This document shows positions 5,917 through 7,955 of a stretch of DNA of 64,000 nt, piece by piece (position 1 is the stretch's first letter; every line of letters begins with the position of its first letter). This stretch comes from Prevotella scopos JCM 17725. GTDB lineage: Bacteria; Bacteroidota; Bacteroidia; Bacteroidales; Bacteroidaceae. The position numbers were made by a program, and so were the translations under genes. The stretch is taken from assembly GCF_018127785.1 (NCBI RefSeq), contig NZ_CP072390.1, forward strand, positions 496,001-560,000, in the 5' to 3' direction. The notes below the pieces were generated by a model, which was not told the origin of the DNA, did no database searches, and saw only the letters and a list, made by a program, of their open reading frames with translations.

Positions 5917-6123
5917 ATGGAGAAACATTCTAAAGCAGACTACTTGGCGCCAATGTGCCAGTTAGTCAGAGTGAGCGAAACGAGTTACCTCATGGATACG
6001 TCCTTCCCGACGACTCAGCACAGACCAGCGAATCACGGCGGTATGATTTCAAGTGCAAAGGCTTCTATGTCATGGGAGGAAGACGAGGAAGAGGACGAAG
6101 AGAACCCATCATGGGAAGACTAA
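5917..6123 (+). CDS. Small acidic protein paired with a fimbrillin-like lipoprotein
   Basis: A 68-residue protein with no signal peptide and no membrane segment. It has a MEKHSKADYLAPMC start, a central SYLMDTSFPTTQH segment and a strongly acidic tail (WEEDEEEDEENPSWED). It lies 33 bases before the lipoprotein gene at 6157 and is probably co-transcribed with it. A second small ORF at 61316-61480 sits in the same position before another fimbrillin-like lipoprotein and shares the hydrophobic-LMD-S/T motif followed by TQH. Small proteins like this before surface lipoproteins are common in Prevotella, but I know of no assigned function. Confidence 0.65.
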   Translation: MEKHSKADYLAPMCQLVRVSETSYLMDTSFPTTQHRPANHGGMISSAKASMSWEEDEEEDEENPSWED

Positions 6124-6156: not shown

Positions 6157-7773
6157 ATGAAGACAACAATGAAACAACATTCATTTACCGCACAACTAAA
6201 GTCTTTGGCAGTCGTGTTTGGCATAGCCTTGACTTTTGCATCCTGCGCTAAGGAAGATGTGGCCCAGAACACAACAAGTACGGAGGGCGATAACGACAAG
6301 AACCTCACTACATTTGTTGCAGGCGACGAAACTAAGACCCGCACATCAATGGATTATAACAGTGGAAACTTCTATTGGGAGAAAGGCGATTATATCTACG
6401 TAAAGGATGACAACGGGGTATTGCAGAAGAGTACGAACGCTCCAACGAGCAAGGTAGCTGCTTTTAAGTATAAAGTGCCAGGCAAGTTTACAGCAAATAC
6501 AAGTTATAAGGTTTATTACTTGGGCAAGAACAGTAGCGGCAACTCAGTAACTATCTCAACCACTCATAGCCAGCCAGCTCCAAACAATACTGCACACTTC
6601 GGCACAGCAGGTGATTATGGTACAGCTACTGCAAATAAGGTGACAGGCAAGAATCAGTTTGCGTTCGAGTTAGAGCATCAGCCAGCTTACTTAGTTTTCC
6701 TGCCTTACACAAGTAACACAATTCTACATGACTGTTACTTAACCAAGGTAGAAGTAAGCTCCGACAACGATATAGCGGAGACCTATAATTTCAACTCAAC
6801 AACAGGTGCATTAGACGCTTCTGCAGTAACAGATGGCAAACAGATAGTCTTAACGACACAAGACCCAACATGGGGCAGCACTTACTACAACGGCTTCCCC
6901 CTGACTAACAGCACAGCCAGCGTAACAACTAACGGAGCTTACATGGTAATCAAACCAGGAACTCATATCTTAAGGGTACGTTATTGGGTAAAGGACGTGG
7001 CAACAAATGTGGAGGGCACCATAACAAAAATACTCCCTTCAACAACCTATGCTTCGAACACCTACTACGATATGACTGCAAACCTCAACGTACGCAACTA
7101 CGACGGCGACCATTACTATATGTGGGATGCTCAGCAGCAATATTGGTATGGTTACGAATGGACAAAGCATTTGTCAGGAAACACAGGGCAGCCAACTCTT
7201 AACTATACCAGTTCATCAAACTACGCACAGAGCAACAGCGACCCTCGTTACTACAACGAAAGTTATCCTGGTCTATACATAAGCAACCCTGCTACCCACA
7301 CTTCCTGCAAAGACCTTCCCAATGCTAACGAGATGTCTTGGTACGTAATGTACGGTGATCCACATTGGGACGATGACGAATTATGGACAACTATGGGTCA
7401 TTTACATAAAGGTGGCATGTGGTTTAAGAAGAAGTCCGTGTTGCAAGGCGAGGGCCATTACAACACCGAACTTTCCGCTGATGGTTCAACCGACCTGCGT
7501 ACAACGCACAAGTACTACATCAACAGCAGTAGTAGTATCAATAATTCCAGTCTTCCTTCTGCTGCCGACGTAGGTAATTATTTTTACCTGCCCGCCTTGG
7601 GTAACTACAACTCTGGTCAACTGTACTACGTTGGCTACAACGGCTACTATTGGTCGTCAAGTGCTCACCCGTGGAACAGCAACCTTGCGTACAACCTGTA
7701 CTTCGGCAGGGGTAACGTCCGCGTGGGCAGCGGCAACCGCGACCTCGGGTTCAGAGTCGGCGTGTTTGAGTAG
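6157..7773 (+). CDS. Fimbrillin-like surface lipoprotein with a C-type-lectin-like (FISUMP-type) C-terminal domain
   Basis: A 538-residue lipoprotein. The signal peptide ends in a lipobox (LTFASC), and an acidic segment after the Cys suggests surface export. The N-terminal half (TFVAGDETKTRTSMDY, then FYWEKGDYIYV) resembles fimbrillin/Mfa-like proteins. The C-terminal about 150 residues have Trp- and Tyr-rich blocks ending in NGYYWSSS, AYNLYFG and LGFRVGVFE, the pattern of FISUMP/DUF1566-type domains that often form the variable ligand-binding part of proteins diversified by retroelements. The last about 30 codons are unusually rich in NNC codons (see the finding at 7640-7770). The start could also be the ATG at 6169. 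The ligand is unknown. Confidence 0.75.
   Translation: MKTTMKQHSFTAQLKSLAVVFGIALTFASCAKEDVAQNTTSTEGDNDKNLTTFVAGDETKTRTSMDYNSGNFYWEKGDYIYVKDDNGVLQKSTNAPTSKVAAFKYKVPGKFTANTSYKVYYLGKNSSGNSVTISTTHSQPAPNNTAHFGTAGDYGTATANKVTGKNQFAFELEHQPAYLVFLPYTSNTILHDCYLTKVEVSSDNDIAETYNFNSTTGALDASAVTDGKQIVLTTQDPTWGSTYYNGFPLTNSTASVTTNGAYMVIKPGTHILRVRYWVKDVATNVEGTITKILPSTTYASNTYYDMTANLNVRNYDGDHYYMWDAQQQYWYGYEWTKHLSGNTGQPTLNYTSSSNYAQSNSDPRYYNESYPGLYISNPATHTSCKDLPNANEMSWYVMYGDPHWDDDELWTTMGHLHKGGMWFKKKSVLQGEGHYNTELSADGSTDLRTTHKYYINSSSSINNSSLPSAADVGNYFYLPALGNYNSGQLYYVGYNGYYWSSSAHPWNSNLAYNLYFGRGNVRVGSGNRDLGFRVGVFE
7640..7770 (+). other. Candidate diversity-generating retroelement variable region
   Basis: The 3' end of the lipoprotein gene runs from the GYYWSSS codons to the stop. 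Many codons here are of the NNC form (AAC, AGC, TAC, GGC, CGC, GAC, CTC, GTC), as expected if adenines in a template with repeated AAC codons had been randomised. Conserved framework positions (Leu, Phe, Val and the final Gly-Phe-x-Val) lie between them. No template copy or reverse transcriptase is visible in the window, so this is an inference from pattern. Confidence 0.5.
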
Positions 7774-7792
7774 TCCTAAAAGCCCACCCCGA

Positions 7793-7812
7793 CCCTCCCC
7801 GAAGGGGGAGGG
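7793..7812 (+). repeat. Perfect 8-bp GC hairpin with 4-base loop after the candidate variable region
   Basis: CCCTCCCC at 7793-7800 and GGGGAGGG at 7805-7812 are exact reverse complements around GAAG, 20 bases after the stop codon. A similar 8-bp stem with a 4-base loop just after the variable region is needed for efficient homing in the Bordetella phage element. Such GC palindromes also occur as general repeats in Bacteroidetes. There is no T-run, so it is not a classic terminator. Confidence 0.6.
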
Positions 7813-7864
7813 AGCCTAATGGGATATAGAGAAGAGATAAGAGAAATTCTAACAGGTTGCAAGG

Positions 7865-7955
7865 AAATTTCTAACGTGTTAGAAATTTGCGGGGAACGTG
7901 TTAGCGAGAAATTTCTAACGTGTTAGAAATTTTCTTCCGACCCGTTAGAAATTTT
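7865..7955. repeat. Cluster of AAATTTCTAAC palindromes
   Basis: Two identical 24-base palindromes (AAATTTCTAAC, GT, GTTAGAAATTT) lie at 7865-7888 and 7909-7932. A half-site, GTTAGAAATTT, follows at 7944-7954, and weaker half-sites occur at about 7846 and 7899. The 44-base centre spacing is four helical turns, so a dimeric DNA-binding protein could bind them on one face. Confidence 0.7.

Follow-up and report, generated by a model that had tools for sequence, protein, structure and literature searches.

A lipoprotein gene of Prevotella scopos JCM 17725 very probably ends in an orphan target repeat of a diversity-generating retroelement

The lipoprotein tail and its counterpart in a congener

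The stretch analysed here (the window) comprises 64,000 nucleotides of contig NZ_CP072390.1 of Prevotella scopos JCM 17725 and carries a lipoprotein gene whose 3' end, here called the tail, is the subject of this work (Table 1). In a diversity-generating retroelement (DGR), an invariant, AAC-rich template repeat (TR) is copied into RNA; reverse transcription of that RNA makes errors at adenines, and the resulting cDNA takes the place of the matching 3' end of a target gene, which encodes a surface protein, so that AAC codons there become NNC codons on a fixed backbone. We conclude that the lipoprotein tail is very probably an orphan variable repeat (VR), that is, a target without its DGR. A preliminary description made from the window alone had proposed a DGR target at this place, and the proposal is now strongly supported, because a complete DGR in a congener has both a codon-matched template and a homologous target, and because the differences between tails cluster at template adenines.

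The codon composition of the gene end was as first described, with 18 of the last 28 codons ending in C against 33% gene-wide (binomial p = 9e-4). The richest 28-codon stretch of the gene started at 7678 (20/28), and the best stretch in the remaining 34 of the window's 35 open frames of at least 200 codons reached 15/28. The tail has the layout YLPALGNYN-SGQLYYVGYNGYYWSSSAHPWNSNLAYNLYFGRGNVRVGSGNRDLGFRVG, and the protein terminates in ...GFRVGVFE, so that the GFRV motif claimed for its end is present. For the proposed C-type-lectin fold of the tail domain, structure comparison of a weak model gave no usable fold match.

Table 1 Features of the lipoprotein locus in the window.
Feature	Position	Strand	Basis
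Lipoprotein gene, 538 aa, fimbrillin-like middle part	6157..7773	+	homologous over its full length to the target of the DGR in congener G005
Putative variable repeat (VR)	7585..7776	+	aligned by codon to the G005 template and to 19 orphan tails; third-position divergence falls at its border
Variable codons of the VR	~7603 to 7758	+	
8-bp GC stem with GAAG loop	7793..7812	+	one copy of a palindrome dispersed in the genome; disregarded as a DGR signal
Small open reading frame, 68 aa, directly 5' of the lipoprotein gene	5917..6123	+	sequence

Comparison with related genes set the tail apart from the sequence before it. Third-position divergence between the window gene and its relatives was 0.31-0.61 upstream and 0.10-0.18 in the tail, with a sharp change at the VR border, and in most pairs first and second positions diverged more in the tail than upstream. 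Synonymous change at conserved residues was lower in the tail in 10/10 pairs and significantly so in 8, for example 4/40 versus 101/187 upstream between the window gene and G146 (p = 1.4e-7) and 0/43 versus 96/353 in the P. jejuni 1-2 pair (p = 5e-6); the drop was not significant between the window gene and either its paralog L021 (p = 0.09) or G122b (p = 0.17). The third-position C:T ratio in the tail was 34:10 for the window gene and 32:10 for L021, versus 8:30 and 7:32 for L022 and L023, two older-looking paralogs in the same genome whose excess of T over C is as expected if writing had stopped.

Relatives of the P. jejuni DGR reverse transcriptase (RT) were present at E<=1e-20 in 29 of the 398 genomes searched across the genus, a set with one genome per species in which most searches scored few candidates per genome (up to 4, or 2), so that a template could be missed outside the P. 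scopos genome (G000). Among 30 DGR-RT loci scanned, one (L122, in genome G005, 86% complete) had a template with the window-tail layout; it reads FLPALGNYNNGTLNNVGTNGNYWSSSPNPGNADNAYNLNFNSGEVNVNNNNRNNGYVAG, is AAC-rich and follows the window tail codon for codon. The locus consists, in order, of a target lipoprotein, an accessory open reading frame (ORF), an Avd-like protein, the TR and the RT. The target aligned with the window protein over residues 62-535 (170/490 identical, 35%; E = 1e-69), and a gene of this family is thus the cis target of a complete DGR. The Avd-like protein matched PF22296 at E = 1.3e-9, 1 bit under the cut-off, which its P. jejuni counterpart exceeded; the top PDB sequence match of the RT was 8ub7 'Reverse transcriptase' (E = 4.5e-32), which we take to be the DGR enzyme of the Bordetella phage BPP-1. 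A sub-threshold Lcl_C match (E = 8.9e-4) occurred only in the TR-encoded start of the RT frame. VR and TR of this locus differed at 21/53 template adenines and at none of the 124 remaining sites.

A DGR with a YWSAVP-type template was also observed in P. jejuni and P. vespertina (L156 3844-9359, L157), in P. jejuni beside a 901-aa target. Its RT and Avd belong to the same families and its TR has a similar layout, but it departs from the system described here in its template, which reads YWSAVP..., and in the protein that it targets. This template was rejected as the parent of the window tail because of its backbone misfit: along 87 bases of the window gene it matches at only 72%.

We aligned 19 orphan tails to the G005 TR; they came from nine genomes that lack a matching template, and we left out the YWSAVP and Lcl-like types and partial or frame-shifted tails such as L113, L115, L117, L023 and L043. 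Mean entropy was 1.43 bits at the 53 template-A sites versus 0.50 at the 124 others (permutation within codon position, p<=5e-5), and the third base at template AAC codons was C in 89.5% of 361 cases. The window tail differed from that of P. veroralis at 27/53 template-A sites and 5/124 others (p = 1.4e-12); against four foreign tails the counts were 25-30/53 and 5-13/124 (p 3e-8 to 1.4e-12). Its differences from its own paralog L021 (25/53 and 22/124, p = 1.5e-4) and from the G005 TR (27/53 and 31/124, p = 0.0015) were less confined to adenines; together these two comparisons argue against very recent writing of both P. scopos tails from one template, and the latter excludes the G005 TR as parent template. 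The 3' repeat differs at template adenines relative to the homologous template of a congener and to other tails; its parent template was not found.

Search for the machinery and alternative explanations

In the P. scopos assembly (3.3 Mb, three contigs, 99.88% complete), an RVT_1 search found a single RT, whose best NCBIfam and PADLOC matches were of retron type, and the P. jejuni DGR RT as query gave 0 candidates. The retron-like RT lies at L001 1297-2535 and has a close relative in G146 (L048). It was discarded as the writer of the tail since its best NCBIfam matches were retron RTs, below their cut-offs, and since G122 and G026 carry such tails without any RVT_1 match. A DNA search of the assembly with 7500-7830 gave 18 candidates, all scored and none a template: besides the gene itself, they comprised one paralog (L021) and otherwise the hairpin repeat described below or weak matches. 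The P. jejuni template region matched only the window gene and L021, the two places at which the tail motif occurs in this genome. For Avd, G000 was searched with PF05635 and not with PF22296. The four matches obtained were rejected because they look like common four-helix proteins, the best of them lying within a group of succinate dehydrogenase-like ORFs. No RT was among the ORFs listed around three of them, and the single RT of the genome is located elsewhere.

Within the 64-kb window itself, neither RT nor Avd nor template was seen, as the preliminary description had stated for RT and template; the sole significant match of the G005 and P. jejuni DGR proteins there was that of the TR-encoded start of the G005 RT frame to the tail. 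Neither protein nor DNA searches matched the tail to anything in the plasmid and phage collections, and viral contigs held no relative of the DGR RT; four viral_contigs matches to the short motif were regarded as chance, with no related gene there. The preliminary description had expected an AAC-rich near-copy of the tail beside a DGR-type RT elsewhere in the genome, acting on it in trans. Neither was found in the assembly, and the idea that the tail is now a remote target rewritten in trans within this cell is not supported. The same description had named two findings as fatal to a DGR target, the lack of an RT and template repeat in the genome and an even spread of the differences; the first was observed, and the second was not, the differences being concentrated at template-A sites.

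Similar tails were widespread. The motif occurred with at most one mismatch in 19/398 genomes and exactly in 11 (G000, G003, G010, G026, G046, G122, G146, G191, G211, G351, G370), 10 of which had no DGR RT at E<=1e-20; the exception, G003, has a template of another type. The single contig of G122 carries two such tails and gave no match in the RVT_1 search. G351 (two contigs) has 34 motif matches, of which the 11 read (L217-L227) each lie in a full-length, dispersed lipoprotein gene (513-535 aa) with a tail of its own; between pairs of these tails the fraction of differing sites is 0.545 for A sites and 0.162 for the rest. Over the 1564 bases 5' of the motif G191 and G370 do not differ at all, and in the 335 bases 3' of it they have only 3 differences, which says nothing about activity. 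Two observations are not readily explained by an orphan DGR target: no DGR RT was found in G351, the genome with 34 motif sites, with the P. jejuni DGR RT as query (RVT_1 was not searched there), and one tail backbone is common to several species while the rest of the gene diverges.

Ongoing rewriting of the tail in trans is unlikely, whether the RT and template sit on a plasmid, a phage or an integrative element that the assembly lacks or the RT has diverged too far for our searches. The nearly drift-free backbone relative to P. veroralis and the existence of a DGR in P. jejuni and P. vespertina would suit such rewriting, as would some Thiohalocapsa targets that match a template elsewhere in the genome (PMC10907252). 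The near-complete assembly with only a retron-like RT and a paralog as its sole other tail copy, the RT-less single contig of G122, and the failure to match plasmid and phage collections all speak against it.

Still less probable is an origin without any DGR, through recombination among a pool of alleles combined with selection for amino-acid change. The many paralogs per genome, up to the 34 motif sites of G351, and the homogeneous backbone across species could be accommodated in this way, but the variable codons were unlinked: in 28 tails with 20 variable codons, adjacent identical codons numbered 113 versus 108 +/- 10.6 in column shuffles (p = 0.33), and the longest shared codon run was 4 versus 3.7. 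Each tail thus resembles a separate draw on a shared backbone, the outcome expected of a template copied with errors at adenines. Moreover, the third bases of the NNC codons remain C even though a C-to-T change there is always silent. That the gene belongs to an ordinary paralog family in which codon choice is locally odd or G+C drives conversion, as the 63% G+C of the last 28 codons (above that of the gene) might suggest, is hardly credible, since positions 1 and 2 of the template AAC codons are not G+C-driven (A+T 66% and 69%) and the pattern tracks the adenines of a real DGR template.

The hairpin and the small upstream reading frames

The perfect 8-bp stem with a 4-base loop reported after the gene is present, with arms at 7793-7800 and 7805-7812 and its start 19 bases past the stop. 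Its palindrome recurs at 11 other places in the genome, mostly where long open frames end or in the gaps between them, so that the hairpin is not special to the lipoprotein gene. Bordetella-type DGRs have a downstream GC hairpin of 7-10 bp with a 4-base GRNA loop (PMC3240598); stem length and loop size fit here, and the loop sequence, GAAG, does not. No perfect stem of at least 7 bp (loop 3-8) was found within 120 bases past the stop of the G005 target, and the hairpin consequently does not define this group of targets. For these reasons its suggested role as a homing signal was dismissed. BPP-1 resembles the system described here in adenine-directed change and, by sequence, in RT family, and differs in its GRNA-loop hairpin, which is not matched here.

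With its flanks, the dispersed palindrome CCCTCCCC-GAAG-GGGGAGGG was seen at 12 places in all (window 7774-7824 and L004-L014), mostly gene ends. Palindromes of the form AAATTTCTAA-4 bases-TTAGAAATTT follow both genes with C-rich tails (window 7880-7950; L021 after 3078).

The small ORF before the lipoprotein gene had no NCBIfam match. By eye, similar ORFs precede the paralogs L021 (1216-1467, 83 aa) and L022 (3071-3295, 74 aa). A Thr-His run in a mechanical ORF (L021 691-888) points to a dinucleotide repeat 5' of the paralog's small ORF; phase variation is possible there.

Origin of the tail and relation to known systems

The window gene is most likely a leftover, or was visited by a mobile DGR. 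The tail would have been written in an ancestor or past carrier by a DGR whose template resembled the window backbone closely, and the RT and template of that DGR would afterwards have been lost or have departed with a mobile element. The tail may vary the ligand-binding surface of a pilus-type adhesin, and a DGR probably once controlled this surface adhesin in a Prevotella-like bacterium that presumably lives in the mouth.

Orphan DGR targets as a kind are already published. In Treponema denticola, strains that lack both RT and TR have retained targets; the VRs of these genes deviate from the templates of other strains mostly at adenines, and the authors call the genes leftovers (PMC4891356). 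The likeness to the P. scopos case extends to a mouth bacterium, lipoprotein targets, several targets per genome, VRs that differ from a congeneric template mostly at adenines, and the absence of RT and TR from the isolate. Phylum and target family differ, the T. denticola template came from strains of the same species, and, unlike there, no close parent template was found for the window tail, whose backbone is common to several species. Within the Bacteroidales, a review describes Bacteroides DGRs that diversify type V tip pilins (PMC12632263). As presented there, these are likewise lipoprotein adhesins with a DGR-written tail on a C-terminal domain proposed to bind ligands; unlike them, the window genome yielded no RT or template, and its lipoprotein is at most a putative tip pilin. 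No title naming such orphan tails in Prevotella was found in the literature, as judged on titles and with limited subscription coverage.

We tentatively raise the possibility that mouth-associated Prevotella and their kin share a pool of scattered adhesin genes whose tails are written by a DGR that travels on a mobile element and then leaves. Such a DGR would write one common backbone in many species and leave closed genomes with crisp VRs but no RT. In a bolder form of this idea, a writer other than the known DGR RTs would maintain the tails.

The present analysis ties a surface adhesin to a concrete template in a congener and provides a clean set of orphan targets with which to separate loss, visiting elements and action in trans. 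Searches that start from the RT would miss such repertoires, as the 10 RT-less genomes among the 11 with the exact motif illustrate; a large DGR survey states that its own method misses remote targets (PMC8144416). If the common backbone does reflect a travelling template, targeted hypermutation would be deliverable to many species by a passing element.
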